Translations under genes and position numbers: made by a program
From: Candidatus Mediterraneibacter stercoripullorum
GTDB lineage: Bacteria > Bacillota > Clostridia > Lachnospirales > Lachnospiraceae
Assembly: GCA_019115765.1 (NCBI GenBank)
Contig: DXCZ01000054.1
Location: 1-63,221 of the forward strand
Direction: 5' to 3'
Length of the DNA: 63,221 nucleotides
The notes under the pieces: model-generated
What the model was told of the DNA's origin: nothing
Database searches by the model: none
The model's input: only the letters and a program-made list of their open reading frames with translations
Part shown: positions 40,112-44,726 of the stretch, piece after piece
Layout of the letters: each line of letters opens with the position of its first letter
Position numbering within the stretch: position 1 is the stretch's first letter

Positions 40112-41734
40112 ATGGTTACGATAAGCGGTAAAAGTGTATTCGGCGGCGTTGCTATCGGAAAGATCATGTTCTATAAGAGAAATGAGAAGGTGATCAAGAG
40201 AACGCACGTCGAAGATGTTGATGCAGAGTGGCAGCGCTTTGCCGCGGCGAAGGATAAGGCTGTCAGCCAGTTGAAGAATCTGCATGACAAGGCTTTGGAC
40301 GATGTTGGAGAAGCGAATGCCATGATATTTGAGATCCATCAGATGATGCTGGAGGATCTTGATTATCTCGAGTCTATTGAAAATATCATCCGTTCTCAGC
40401 ATCTGAATGCAGAATATGCGGTTGCAACGACGGCAGACAATTTTGCAAAAATGTTTTCTGCCATGGATGATGCCTATATGCAGGGGCGCGCTGCAGATGT
40501 AAAAGATGTTTCCGAGCGTGTGCTGGATATTCTCTGCGGAGTCAGCGATGGAATGAAGGAGATGACAGAACCCTGTATCATCGCAGCGGATGATCTGGCT
40601 CCCAGTGAGACAGTTCAGCTTGATAAGAGCAAAGTCCTTGGCTTTGCCACCATGTACGGATCATCTAATTCCCATACAGCAATCCTTGCCCGTACCATGA
40701 ATATTCCGGCAGTGATCGGAATGGGCGAAGAGCTGAAAGCAGAGTATGACGGACAGCTTTCCATCCTTGATGGATTTACCGGTACTCTTTACATCGATCC
40801 TGATTATGAGACAATGGCAAAGATGCAGGACAAGCGCGCCAAAGATCTGGAGCAGAAAGCACTTCTTGAGCAGCTGAGAGGAAAGGAAAATGTAACAAAG
40901 AGCGGTCAGAAGATCAACGTTTATGCCAATATCGGCAATGTGTCCGATCTTGGCGCGGTGGTCAAGAACGACGCTGGCGGCATCGGACTTTTCCGGAGTG
41001 AGTTCCTGTATCTGGAGAATGATGATTTCCCGACAGAAGATCAGCAGTTCGCAGTTTACAAACAGGTTGCTGAGACGATGGCAGGGAAAAAGGTGATCAT
41101 CCGTACGCTTGATATCGGTGCGGATAAGCAGGTGGATTATTTCGGACTTGACAAGGAAGAGAATCCTGCACTGGGATACAGAGCGATTCGTATCTGTCTG
41201 ACCAGACCGGAGATATTCAAGACTCAGCTCCGTGCCCTGTACCGGGCTGCCATGTTTGGAAACATTTCCATCATGTTCCCGATGATCATCTCCATGAAAG
41301 AGATTTACAAGATCAAAGATATCATTGCCGAGGTAAAAGATGAGCTGACCCGTGAAGGAATCCCGTTCCGGGATGACGTTGAGCTTGGTGTTATGATCGA
41401 GACTCCTGCTTCTGTCATGATCAGCCGTGAACTGGCGAAGGAAGTGGATTTCTTCAGTGTAGGAACCAACGATCTGACGCAGTACACACTTGCCATTGAC
41501 CGTCAGAATTCCAAACTTGATGAGTTCTATGACCCGCATCACCCGGCCATTCTTTCTATGATCAAGATGGCAGCTGAGAATGCTCATGCAGAGGGTGCAT
41601 GGATCGGTATCTGCGGTGAACTTGGCGCTGATCTCGAACTTACGGAAGAATTCCTGAAGATGGGGCTGGATGAGCTTTCTGTCTCCCCGGCTATGGTGCT
41701 TCCGCTCAGAAAGAGAATCAGAGAATGCGAGTAA
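40112..41734 (+). CDS. ptsI: PTS Enzyme I (phosphoenolpyruvate-protein phosphotransferase)
   Basis: 540 residues, slightly shorter than the usual ~570. It takes phosphate from PEP and gives it to HPr. The active histidine is in GSSNSHTAILARTM (about 187-200), the PEP-binding arginine in GIGLFRSEFLY (about 289-299), and the C-terminal signature SVGTNDLTQYTLAIDRQN at about 449-466 is intact. Start is three bases after ptsH, inside a coupled arrangement. A terminator follows. Confidence 0.97.
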   Translation: MVTISGKSVFGGVAIGKIMFYKRNEKVIKRTHVEDVDAEWQRFAAAKDKAVSQLKNLHDKALDDVGEANAMIFEIHQMMLEDLDYLESIENIIRSQHLNAEYAVATTADNFAKMFSAMDDAYMQGRAADVKDVSERVLDILCGVSDGMKEMTEPCIIAADDLAPSETVQLDKSKVLGFATMYGSSNSHTAILARTMNIPAVIGMGEELKAEYDGQLSILDGFTGTLYIDPDYETMAKMQDKRAKDLEQKALLEQLRGKENVTKSGQKINVYANIGNVSDLGAVVKNDAGGIGLFRSEFLYLENDDFPTEDQQFAVYKQVAETMAGKKVIIRTLDIGADKQVDYFGLDKEENPALGYRAIRICLTRPEIFKTQLRALYRAAMFGNISIMFPMIISMKEIYKIKDIIAEVKDELTREGIPFRDDVELGVMIETPASVMISRELAKEVDFFSVGTNDLTQYTLAIDRQNSKLDEFYDPHHPAILSMIKMAAENAHAEGAWIGICGELGADLELTEEFLKMGLDELSVSPAMVLPLRKRIRECE

Positions 41735-41756
41735 ACACATATTGTAATAAATAACA

Positions 41757-41802
41757 AATGAGGCGCTATACCTGTATAAAAGCAGGAGGGCGCTTCATTT
41801 TT
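41757..41802 (+). terminator. Terminator after ptsI
   Basis: A 10-bp stem with one wobble pair (41757-41766 with 41790-41799) ends in a T run; an inner CCTG/CAGG pair strengthens it. Confidence 0.75.
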
Positions 41803-41856
41803 TGTGCGTTCCGCCCGGATGACAGAGAACAGATGAACAATAACACAGTTGAAAAA

Positions 41857-41926
41857 AGAACGTATGTTCTAAAAATGATTGAAATGAAGGGTGTAATATG
41901 TTATCATGTGATAAGAACATATGTTT
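41857..41926 (+). promoter_or_regulatory. SOS-type promoter bracketed by two LexA boxes
   Basis: Box 1 at 41858-41869 is a perfect GAAC-N4-GTTC dyad (GAACGTATGTTC). Box 2 at 41915-41926 is GAACATATGTTT, one mismatch from the Bacillus LexA consensus. Between them TTGAAA (41879-41884), 17 bases and TATCAT (41902-41907) form a promoter, so box 2 covers the start point. LexA at both sites would repress the radical-SAM pair until DNA damage. Confidence 0.8.
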
Positions 41927-41942
41927 GGGAGGCGGAATTGTT

Positions 41943-43292
41943 ATGTATGACCGGATACAGACGGAGATGAGTATCTACGATAAGCTGAATATTTTGTCGG
42001 ATGCAGCCAAGTATGATGTGGCATGTACTTCCAGCGGTGTAGACCGGAAAGGAGATGGCTCGGGTATGGGTAACTGCAGTAAAGCCGGGATCTGCCATAG
42101 TTTTTCGGCTGATGGAAGATGTATTTCACTTTTGAAGATTCTTTTTACAAATGAGTGCATTTTCGACTGCAAGTATTGTGTGAACAGATCTTCTAACGAT
42201 GTGGTAAGGACATCCTTTACTCCGGAAGAAGTATGCACACTGACGATGGAATTCTACCGCAGGAACTATATTGAAGGGTTGTTCCTTAGTTCCGGTGTGG
42301 TGAAAAATCCGGACTACACCATGGAACTGCTCTATGCCACCCTATATCGCCTCCGCAATATCTGCAATTTTCGGGGATATATTCATGTAAAAGCAATTCC
42401 CGGGGCTGATCAGCGGCTGATACGCATGACCGGATATCTGGCGGACAGGATGAGTGTTAATATAGAACTGCCTACAGCAGAGAGTCTGCGGCAGCTGGCT
42501 CCTCATAAAACACGTAAAAACATCCTTGCTCCCATGAGACTGGTGCAGGAACAGAGGAAGGAGAATCGGTATGAAGTTTCTGTCAGAAAGGACGGCCCGC
42601 GGTTTGTTCCGGCAGGACAGAGCACACAGATGATTATAGGCGCTACGCCAGAGACAGATTTTCAGATTTTAAATGTGGCAGAATCTCTTTACGACAGATT
42701 TGAGCTGAAACGGGTATTCTATTCGGCATTTGTACCGGTTAATGAAGAGATTGCTCTGCCGGCGGTGAGAAGAGACGGCCCGCCGCTTCTGCGGGAACAC
42801 AGACTGTATCAGGCGGACTGGCTGTTGAGGTTTTATCATTTTCGTGCTTCGGAGCTGCTTGATGAGAAAAATCCGAATTTCAACGTGTTTCTTGATCCGA
42901 AATGCTGCTGGGCTCTGAAGCATCTGGAGCAGTTTCCTGTGGAAGTAAACCGGGCGGATTACCGCATGCTTTTACGGGTACCGGGAATCGGCTGCAAATC
43001 AGCATCCAGGATCGTGAAAGCCAGACGCATGGGCGCACTTGATTTTCAGGACTTGAAAAGGATGGGAGTCGTACTGAAGCGAGCGTTATATTTTATTACT
43101 TGTCAGGGAAAGATGATGTTCTGTACGAAGCTGGATGAGGATTATATTACGAGGAATCTTCTTAATACAAAGGAAAGACTTCCTGAAGGCGCTGACGGGA
43201 TGACTTATCGGCAGCTTTCTCTGTTTGATGATATGAGTTTTGGAGTAAAAGATGCATTTGAGACTGTTTCGGGAAAGAAGGCGGGGATATAG
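41943..43292 (+). CDS. Radical SAM DNA modification/repair protein (TIGR03916 type)
   Basis: 449 residues from the ATG at 41943, preceded by GGGAGG; an earlier in-frame start would lie in LexA box 2. The radical SAM cluster is CIFDCKYC (Cys72, 76 and 79), and extra cysteines at 28, 45, 51 and 60 are conserved-looking. A helix-hairpin-helix motif lies at about 344-358 (RVPGIGCKSASRIVK), a non-specific DNA-binding element. Near the C-terminus RQLSLFDD (Q424-F428) matches a sliding-clamp-binding motif and the same string in PolC. The family is annotated as putative DNA repair with unknown substrate. SOS control and a partner gene two bases later support repair of a specific lesion. Confidence 0.9.
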   Translation: MYDRIQTEMSIYDKLNILSDAAKYDVACTSSGVDRKGDGSGMGNCSKAGICHSFSADGRCISLLKILFTNECIFDCKYCVNRSSNDVVRTSFTPEEVCTLTMEFYRRNYIEGLFLSSGVVKNPDYTMELLYATLYRLRNICNFRGYIHVKAIPGADQRLIRMTGYLADRMSVNIELPTAESLRQLAPHKTRKNILAPMRLVQEQRKENRYEVSVRKDGPRFVPAGQSTQMIIGATPETDFQILNVAESLYDRFELKRVFYSAFVPVNEEIALPAVRRDGPPLLREHRLYQADWLLRFYHFRASELLDEKNPNFNVFLDPKCCWALKHLEQFPVEVNRADYRMLLRVPGIGCKSASRIVKARRMGALDFQDLKRMGVVLKRALYFITCQGKMMFCTKLDEDYITRNLLNTKERLPEGADGMTYRQLSLFDDMSFGVKDAFETVSGKKAGI

Positions 43293-43293
43293 G

Positions 43294-44061
43294 ATGAAAA
43301 GGATTTATGTCTGTCATGATACATTAACCGGTATATATTCCGCGCTTCACGACGCCTGGGTGGAGAGCCGGAACGGTGATGCGGGCATCCGTTTCCGAGG
43401 GAGGATCCAGCAGCAGCTTTTCTGTGACTATCATATTGTTGAGGAAAATGAAGAGAAAGTAATTAAAATTGAACGTCTGATCAAACGTCATCTGGGATAT
43501 AATGCGTACTGGGCTGTGTATCATGCGCTGCTTTCTGATGAAGAGCAGAAAGCCGAGGCGGTATTTCACACTATGCAGGAGGCAAGACGGATCGCGGACA
43601 GTCAGAAGATCATGGATCATCTTGGGAATGAGAGTGTGGCAATGGTCTTCGAACTAAGCAGAAGGGTATCTAATGAATCTCATATGTATAAAGAATTTAT
43701 CCGTTTCCGGGAGATTCAAAACGGTGTGCTGGTATCGGAAATATCCCCCAGGACACAGGTGCTGACATGTATCGCAGATCATTTTGCAGACCGTTTCCCA
43801 CTGGAAAACTGGATGATTATTGACCGTACCCATCATGTGACGCTTCTCCACAAGGCAAAAGGACCTTGCCGGCTTCTGTGGGATGCCGATCCGGATTCAG
43901 AAGCATTATCAAAATTATCAGATGAAGAGGAGAAATATGAAAACCTCTGGAAGGGCTTTTTTGACTCGGTTTCAATACGTGAAAGGGAAAACCCGAAACT
44001 TCAGCAGTCGCATCTGCCCCTTCGATACAGAGATATGATGCCTGAATTTACAGGGGACTGA
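43294..44061 (+). CDS. DUF4130/TIGR03915 putative DNA repair protein
   Basis: 255 residues from the ATG at 43294, one base after the stop of the radical-SAM gene, with no strong ribosome site of its own, so coupled translation is likely. The sequence begins MKRIYVCHDTLTGIYSALHDAW and has the family's RTHHVTLLHKAKG-like basic segment near 195-207. DUF4130 also occurs next to uracil-DNA-glycosylase-like (UdgX) domains in other bacteria. No catalytic residues are established; it probably binds DNA or the damaged base and works with the radical-SAM partner. Confidence 0.85.
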   Translation: MKRIYVCHDTLTGIYSALHDAWVESRNGDAGIRFRGRIQQQLFCDYHIVEENEEKVIKIERLIKRHLGYNAYWAVYHALLSDEEQKAEAVFHTMQEARRIADSQKIMDHLGNESVAMVFELSRRVSNESHMYKEFIRFREIQNGVLVSEISPRTQVLTCIADHFADRFPLENWMIIDRTHHVTLLHKAKGPCRLLWDADPDSEALSKLSDEEEKYENLWKGFFDSVSIRERENPKLQQSHLPLRYRDMMPEFTGD

Positions 44062-44080
44062 ATGTGGCGGTGAGAACTGC

Positions 44081-44139
44081 ATTATATCAGCTAAAGCTGA
44101 CCCGAATCCCGCGCCAAGACTCGTGAGCGAGCCTTGAAT
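44081..44139. repeat. Dispersed hairpin repeat, copy 2
   Basis: Matches 71-129 at 55 of 59 positions, starting 20 bases after the DUF4130 stop. The TCAGCT/AGCTGA palindrome is kept; the second stem has one A-C mismatch. The outer stem of copy 1 is missing here. As the first structure after the operon it may act as a 3' hairpin, though it lacks a T run. Confidence 0.8.
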
Positions 44140-44192
44140 GAATACATGAGAAATAGTTCAGTTACGTTCTGGCGTAAAATTATGGAAAACAG

Positions 44193-44221
44193 TTGTATAA
44201 AAGGACAAATAAGATTATGAT
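44193..44221 (+). promoter_or_regulatory. Promoter of nfeD-SPFH-helicase genes
   Basis: TTGTAT (44193-44198), 17-base spacer, TATGAT (44216-44221), about 55 bases before the nfeD start. Confidence 0.5.
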
Positions 44222-44276
44222 AAAGACATCATCGGATGTATTATTCGAGGATAATCTGACGAAAGAGAGGGACGCT

Positions 44277-44726
44277 ATGGAGAAAGAAGTTTTTTTGTGG
44301 CTTGGCCTGATGATCATTTTTCTGATAATCGAGCTTCTTACCGTAGGACTGACATGCATCTGGCTGGCCGGAGGTTCTCTGGCTGCACTTCTGGTTTCTC
44401 TGACGGGAGCAAATATTGTATGGCAAGTTCTGATGTTTATCCTGGTTTCATTTCTGCTGGTGGTCTTTACAAGACCTTTTGCTATGAAATACATAAATGC
44501 CCGGCATGAAAGAACCAATGTAGATGAGCTTATCGGAAAACTGGTCAAAGTAACGGAAACAGTAGACAACTATGAACAGACGGGAGCGGCGACCGCGAAT
44601 GGGCTGGACTGGACAGCAAGGTCTGAAGATGACAGAGAGACGATCGAGAAGGGAAGTCTTGCCAGAGTTGTCCGTATCTCGGGTGTGAAACTGATACTGA
44701 AAAAGAGTGAGGAGGGAAAATCATGA
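44277..44726 (+). CDS. NfeD-like membrane protein
   Basis: 149 residues from the ATG at 44277, after AGAGAGG. Two or three membrane segments (about 3-45 and 50-68) precede a C-terminal OB-fold domain (about 85-149) typical of short NfeD proteins. These pair with SPFH/stomatin proteins, and the SPFH gene overlaps it here (ATGA). The pair organises membrane microdomains; a precise role is not known. Confidence 0.88.
   Translation: MEKEVFLWLGLMIIFLIIELLTVGLTCIWLAGGSLAALLVSLTGANIVWQVLMFILVSFLLVVFTRPFAMKYINARHERTNVDELIGKLVKVTETVDNYEQTGAATANGLDWTARSEDDRETIEKGSLARVVRISGVKLILKKSEEGKS

Follow-up and report, generated by a model that had tools for sequence, protein, structure and literature searches.

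The stretch analysed here (the window, 63,221 nucleotides in full length) carries adjoining genes on one strand for a radical SAM protein and a DUF4130 protein, a pair that is otherwise named merely 'putative DNA repair'. The question is how this pair is controlled, what it docks on and what its radical chemistry acts on. The sequence-only reading regarded it as an SOS-induced repair system that binds the sliding clamp and reverses or removes a base lesion, much as spore photoproduct lyase does. The features of the locus are summarized in Table 1. In profile searches, the radical SAM protein matches TIGR03916 with 686 bits (curated cut-off 343.5) and its partner matches TIGR03915 with 228 bits (curated cut-off 112.25). 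The partner consists of DUF4130 only, without a fused UDG domain, according to a domain search. The ATG at 41943 is a likelier start of the radical SAM gene than the first ATG at 41898, because it is preceded by gggagg. The partner gene begins one base after the radical SAM gene, as had been noticed (start at 43294, stop codon at 43290-43292). The source genome is of Lachnospiraceae type; the closest named relative found, on a contig of an uncultured Mediterraneibacter, has a radical SAM protein that is 91% identical.

Table 1. Features of the radical SAM/DUF4130 locus (positions in the window)
Feature	Position	Strand	Basis or remark
LexA box 1, GAACGTATGTTC	41858..41869	no strand	sequence; just 5' of the -35 element
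Promoter, sigma-70-type, predicted, TTGAAA-17-TATCAT	41879..41907	+	10/12 matches, TG before the -10 element
LexA box 2, GAACATATGTTT	41915..41926	no strand	sequence; just 3' of the -10 element
P0001, radical SAM protein, TIGR03916, 449 aa	41943..43292	+	profile search
Clamp-binding-type motif QLSLF, P0001 residues 424-428	43212..43226	+	sequence, tail survey
P0002, TIGR03915/DUF4130 partner, 255 aa	43294..44061	+	profile search
DinG/Rad3-like helicase, 801 aa	45679..48084	+	grouped with the pair by association only

The two GAAC-N4-GTTY boxes at 41858 and 41915 are confirmed, and they flank the best-scoring promoter. This promoter had been called the only one. The best-scoring site does lie between the boxes, but seven promoter-like sites are observed in 41700-44300 (4.8 expected), one of which, at 41849-41876, overlaps box 1, and the description is therefore overstated. 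In the source genome, boxes of this type are also found ahead of lexA, recA and a Y-family polymerase gene. The sequence GAACRTAYGTTY is found without mismatch at five distinct places in the 3.2 Mb assembly, which are both boxes of the window, two sites before the Y-family polymerase gene and one before lexA; the 12-mer of box 1 itself also precedes this polymerase gene, and the box of recA ends 23 bases before its likely ATG start. GAACN4GTTC with at most one mismatch is not enriched in the whole window (24 observed versus 22.9 expected), and GAACN4GTTY is about as frequent genome-wide as its reversed control (82+70 versus 80+77). A lone box therefore proves little, and position and conservation are used instead. 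As a separate observation, an ORF of at least 107 aa at locus L029 (from about 2710, plus strand) faces lexA divergently across LexA boxes. It has a hydrophobic stretch at its N-terminus, contains a LysM-like part and is a candidate SOS cell-division inhibitor; in Bacillus, yneA faces lexA likewise.

Conservation of the box was examined from -200 to +30 of the radical SAM gene start in three sets: the best 30 of the 48 matching genomes among 58 genus genomes searched, the 29 best-scoring loci of the TIGR03916 search of the phylum, and 79 of 80 loci of a wider set. A box is present in 30/30 genus loci (dinucleotide shuffles: mean 0.30, maximum 3), 18/29 phylum loci (mean 0.26, maximum 2) and 58/79 wider-set loci (mean 0.84, maximum 5). 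Because a few genomes recur between the sets, regions more than 90% identical were removed, which leaves a box in 102 and two boxes in 29 of 134 distinct regions; shared ancestry inflates these counts, as it does those of the tail motif below, and the shuffles leave ancestry in. As a rough control, a box precedes 10 of 302 further wider-set ORFs with a length of 250 aa or more, which were called mechanically, so that many are not genes. The searched upstream zone lacks a box at 32/138 loci, and none is found in four genomes of one family in which the pair is unlinked. Dual LexA control had been proposed, but two boxes are found at only 3/30 genus, 1/29 phylum and 26/79 wider-set loci, and the double arrangement is therefore not a feature of the genus.

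The putative operator changes with the clade. A diverged Bacillota group, 41-47% identical to the radical SAM protein of the window, has a box in 12/14 loci, counted over a 355-base stretch without a shuffle control. Alphaproteobacterial copies on plasmid records have GAAC-N7-GAAC in 9/9 loci (a raw count without a chance expectation), and a single Caballeronia locus carries CTGTATAAATATACAG instead; we take these two to be the LexA sites of the respective proteobacterial classes. A Spirosoma (Bacteroidota) locus shows just a poor box-like match. At the locus of the window, a clade-typical operator lies over the promoter. The boxes are thus not absent in close relatives, which would have spoken against the sequence-only reading, and their conservation makes a strong comparative case for SOS control of the pair.

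The family TIGR03916 (rSAM_link_UDG) presumably corresponds to COG4277. An operon of COG1573 and COG4277 is described as SOS-regulated in Bacteroidetes in an excerpt of PMC8565304, where the same control is cited for Verrucomicrobia and Alphaproteobacteria. The statement that these families are annotated only as putative DNA repair is therefore incomplete. The published operon resembles the present one in its radical SAM family and LexA control, but proteobacterial COG4277 loci carry a DUF4130-UDG fusion, whereas DUF4130 stands alone in the source genome. In SPR experiments with 20 fragments predicted from operators of the GAAC....GTTT/C type, C. difficile LexA bound 16, and the table of that study, as excerpted, names no radical SAM gene (PMC4234289). 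As far as we searched the literature, clostridial LexA operators for the TIGR03916/TIGR03915 pair are unreported.

The QLSLF motif is found at exactly residues 424-428 of the radical SAM protein, counted from the ATG at 41943. It had been described as the string that ends PolC. PolC does share it, but the PolC-type polymerase of the window ends with QLSLFDFA, so that QLSLF is located three residues before, not at, the end. Of 47 chosen ORFs of the window, only PolC and the radical SAM protein contain Q[LMIV][SDTAP][LMIF]F, and the TIGR03916 profile match stops at residue 428, the last of the motif. The consensus pentapeptide for clamp binding is QL[S/D]LF, and the QLSLF peptide of PolC binds B. 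subtilis DnaN with a KD of 3.8 uM, according to an excerpt of PMC12309361.

The tail, defined as the family sequence past residue 386, is poorly conserved. A radical SAM ORF was usable at 176 loci, which give 154 distinct tails; of these, 145 contain Q[LMIV]x[LMIF][FWLI] (shuffle mean 5.1, maximum 14) and 107 the stricter Q[LM][SDTAP]L[FL] (shuffle mean 0.3, maximum 3). The motif lies 13 to 47 residues beyond residue 386, and its looser form occurs elsewhere in the protein in only 12/154 cases. The nine tails without a match have QPSLF (three), QMTLxDF (two), QLILEF, QLSVF, QMSLPL and, in one case, nothing clear. For 43 representatives less than 70% identical in the core, pairwise identity averages 0.57 over the core and 0.74 over the motif, against 0.17 at residues 390-420 and 0.11 past the motif; the alignment itself is attracted to the motif, and the alignment-free count of tails is therefore the safer figure. 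Fourteen diverged loci lie outside the 154; nine of them fit the pattern, and the other five carry QLSWDF, QLSFDF or QLDWL. The nine alphaproteobacterial proteins end with QLSLF, QLALF, QLSLL, QLQLL, QLALI, QLTLF or QLEMF. In the AlphaFold model the tail is disordered (pLDDT below 50 from 420 to 442), so that a conserved QL[S/D]LF-type motif is located in an accessible region, as in a sliding-clamp client. The pattern is matched by 4/67 DUF4130 partners and by 0/11 other partners (nine UdgX fusions and two stand-alone DUF4130 proteins). The tether therefore seems to be specific to the radical SAM protein. A lack of conservation of QLSLF would have weakened the idea of a clamp-docking tail; the motif is instead retained widely, and the comparative case for clamp docking is strong. 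No report of a clamp-binding motif in a radical SAM protein was found in the open-access literature.

Several observations were made on single tails. Two genus loci (L040 and L042) encode a diverged radical SAM protein whose tail ends with QMTLxDFG, and retain the LexA box. A 34% identical homologue on a Gemmatirosa plasmid (L136, 3794-5095) has QLSLW in its tail and lacks the three extra cysteines described below. A virus-labelled IMG/VR contig (L259) has a related radical SAM gene ending with QLELFG, with GAAC-N7-GAAC shortly 5' of the match start, and its large neighbouring ORFs may be phage genes. The radical SAM proteins of many relatives (e.g. L077, L085 and L091) have ITGEL- or LTGQL-like C-termini, perhaps because the ribosome site of the following gene overlaps these codons and not because the residues form a protein motif.

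The CX3CX2C motif of the radical SAM protein, noticed before, consists of C72, C76 and C79, which are kept in 154/154 proteins. Additional conserved cysteine ligands, as for an auxiliary cluster, are found at C28 and C51 (152/154 each) and C60 (153/154), the exceptions being one truncated contig and one distant protein. These cysteines probably mark a second metal site. Of the 154 proteins, 152 have all six cysteines, and catalysis is therefore probably under selection. A helix-hairpin-helix motif, also noticed before, is matched at 332-369 with 24.5 bits, just under the Pfam cut-off of 27. The AlphaFold model has a pLDDT of 82, with low confidence in the loops of C28, C51 and C60. Among the 50 listed of 62 fold matches with E<=0.001, the core resembles HydE, lipoyl synthase, biotin synthase, HydG, MiaB, viperin-like proteins and others. 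The first three are the closest solved folds (E from 4.9e-8 to about 1e-4), with a low overall TM-score of about 0.35 by query. N-terminal cysteines for an auxiliary cluster occur in lipoyl synthase as well; to our knowledge, HydE, lipoyl synthase and biotin synthase are metabolic enzymes without DNA-binding or clamp parts. For neither protein of the pair was a solved structure found with more than short stretches of similar sequence. The clamp tail and the second cysteine set seem to be unreported in open papers, SOS control of the family being known elsewhere.

The analogy with spore photoproduct lyase is not borne out beyond the superfamily level. When the family of the radical SAM protein is compared with a seven-sequence TIGR04070 alignment by hhalign, only 35 columns around CX3CX2C are aligned, with a probability of 5.5%; similarity over the whole profile is not found. 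The lyase is absent among the 50 fold matches listed, and TIGR04070 has no match in the source genome. Homology to the lyase is rejected because of the 35-column alignment and the lack of the lyase among these folds. The likeness is thus that of two radical SAM proteins, similar in the CX3CX2C region only. Unlike the lyase, the present protein has extra cysteines, a helix-hairpin-helix motif, a clamp-type tail and a partner.

The partner is nearly constant. Among 398 genomes of the phylum, TIGR03916 is matched with E<=0.001 in 153 and over the cut-off in 91. The weak matches fall on the CX3CX2C or helix-hairpin-helix stretches, and pairing was counted in the 91 genomes only. For TIGR03915, 92 of 94 matching genomes were used; the two dropped for weak matches (G147 and G210) are not among the 91. 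TIGR03915 (E<=0.001, in some cases under the cut-off) is present in 90/91 genomes. Caulobacter vibrioides/crescentus, used as a control genome, has matches to both families. The two genes are adjacent on one strand in 85 of these 90, unlinked in four (one family) and on separate contigs in one.

The model of the DUF4130 protein has a pLDDT of 93. Its residues R137, F138, F164, R167, R231 and E251 are kept in 78/78 aligned proteins, including nine UdgX fusions. This conservation suggests that the protein is a scaffold for gripping nucleic acid and not a classical nuclease. The best fold match by Foldseek is to a DHH/RecJ-type phosphoesterase, PAP phosphatase 8a8k (E 1.6e-5), with a TM-score of only 0.37 and an rmsd of 8.7. 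The near-invariant residues include none of the DHH-type metal ligands, and neither DHH/RecJ metal motifs nor profile similarity is found. A DHH/RecJ-like nuclease was considered and discarded for want of support, given this TM-score, the lack of such ligands and an hhalign probability of 0.7% against one DHH/DHHA1 protein. In proteobacteria (nine annotated loci), the partner is a UdgX-family protein, for two of which DUF4130 plus UDG is confirmed. The Bacteroidota and Bacillota partners that were read are DUF4130 alone; the partner in the window is no UdgX-DUF4130 fusion, and UdgX is matched at 0/80 wider-set loci, which are mostly Bacillota (flanks of at most 3.5 kb). The single PF03167 match of the source genome is an ordinary Ung on another contig. 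A KRRIH-like motif, which marks covalent UdgX chemistry, is present in 7/9 UdgX fusions. No report of UdgX together with a radical SAM protein was found in the open-access literature.

A DinG/Rad3-like helicase gene follows the pair on the same strand within 190 bases at 19/30 genus loci (19 of L041-L068). It is found on the same strand at 16/80 wider-set loci (L138 and 16 of L139-L171 being the other helicase loci), in three cases within 190 bases and in the other thirteen with 0.46-1.6 kb in between. In the window, NfeD and SPFH genes separate it from the pair. It is perhaps a third gene of the operon. PADLOC labels it as type IV CRISPR DinG-like.

Direct reversal of another pyrimidine lesion, as proposed by the sequence-only reading, is consistent with the CX3CX2C motif, the SOS boxes and the helix-hairpin-helix motif, and a figure legend of PMC3765255 links DUF4130 to 'SplB-like radical SAM photolyases'. 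It is nevertheless quite unlikely, because hhalign aligns just 35 columns with the lyase, because the lyase is not among the 50 folds listed, and because of the three extra cysteines and the near-constant partner. That partner may instead be what the radical chemistry acts on, either through modification of DUF4130/UdgX or through resolution of a DNA-protein adduct such as the UdgX-uracil crosslink. The pairing in 90/91 genomes and the KRRIH-like motif of the fusions point in this direction, but the lack of UdgX from the wider-set loci does not, and the clamp motif and helix-hairpin-helix point to DNA; we consider this reading unlikely.

The pair may also be a tolerance or mutagenesis factor, which competes for the clamp and manages the access of SOS polymerases, with its radical chemistry secondary. 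The Y-family polymerase gene of the source genome has the same operator, and the legend cited above calls DUF4130 a 'predicted mutagenesis-related enzyme' (PMC3765255). We give this possibility only a slim chance, because the retention of the six cysteines suggests that catalysis is probably under selection. A function against phages or in mobile elements, suggested by copies on 158 records listed as plasmids and on virus-labelled contigs (10 records and two loci), is very improbable, since the radical SAM gene is common to 48 of the 58 genus genomes and the PADLOC families include none for its product and a marginal one for the partner (E 0.0076). A defence system is rejected because of the lack of a PADLOC family for the radical SAM protein.

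The pair is probably involved in DNA repair, and a LexA-controlled, clamp-tethered radical SAM repair enzyme with a DUF4130 partner is a likely account of it. Pairing and the conservation of the box, the motif and the extra cysteines are seen by comparison of sequences. According to this account, LexA would repress the operon, and DNA damage would free it from LexA, so that the two proteins are produced jointly. The radical SAM protein would be tethered to the sliding clamp DnaN by QLSLF, which sits in a flexible tail of about 40 residues, and would touch DNA with its helix-hairpin-helix domain. A 5'-deoxyadenosyl radical would then attack a nucleotide that is damaged, or an adduct, at the fork or behind it; such an attack on a DNA lesion is plausible, with the chances about evenly balanced. 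A putative second metal site at C28, C51 and C60, whose cluster type we infer, would probably take part in this chemistry. DUF4130, in which most invariant residues are Arg or Phe, would position the DNA. A UdgX domain is fused to it in proteobacteria, and the DinG-like helicase is encoded by the next gene in many genus members. For the chemistry, direct reversal of a base lesion, as by spore photoproduct lyase, is the weaker option.

More broadly, the pair may represent a separate route of DNA repair that occurs widely among bacteria and differs from that of spore photoproduct lyase. This proposal, which we make tentatively and as somewhat less than an even chance, is that a LexA-induced, clamp-riding radical SAM enzyme with an auxiliary cluster and a DNA-gripping DUF4130 subunit removes or detoxifies a replication-blocking lesion, and that UdgX in proteobacteria and the DinG-like helicase in Lachnospiraceae are clade-specific additions. 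We know of essentially no radical SAM enzyme proven to act on DNA lesions other than spore photoproduct lyase. If the proposal is true, the pair would be a second such family, in which a motif for docking on the replisome and operators of the damage response are conserved over several phyla, and would offer a mechanistic handle on the rSAM-DUF4130(-UdgX) operon. The tail is a clean entry point, where a change of two residues should separate clamp recruitment from catalysis.
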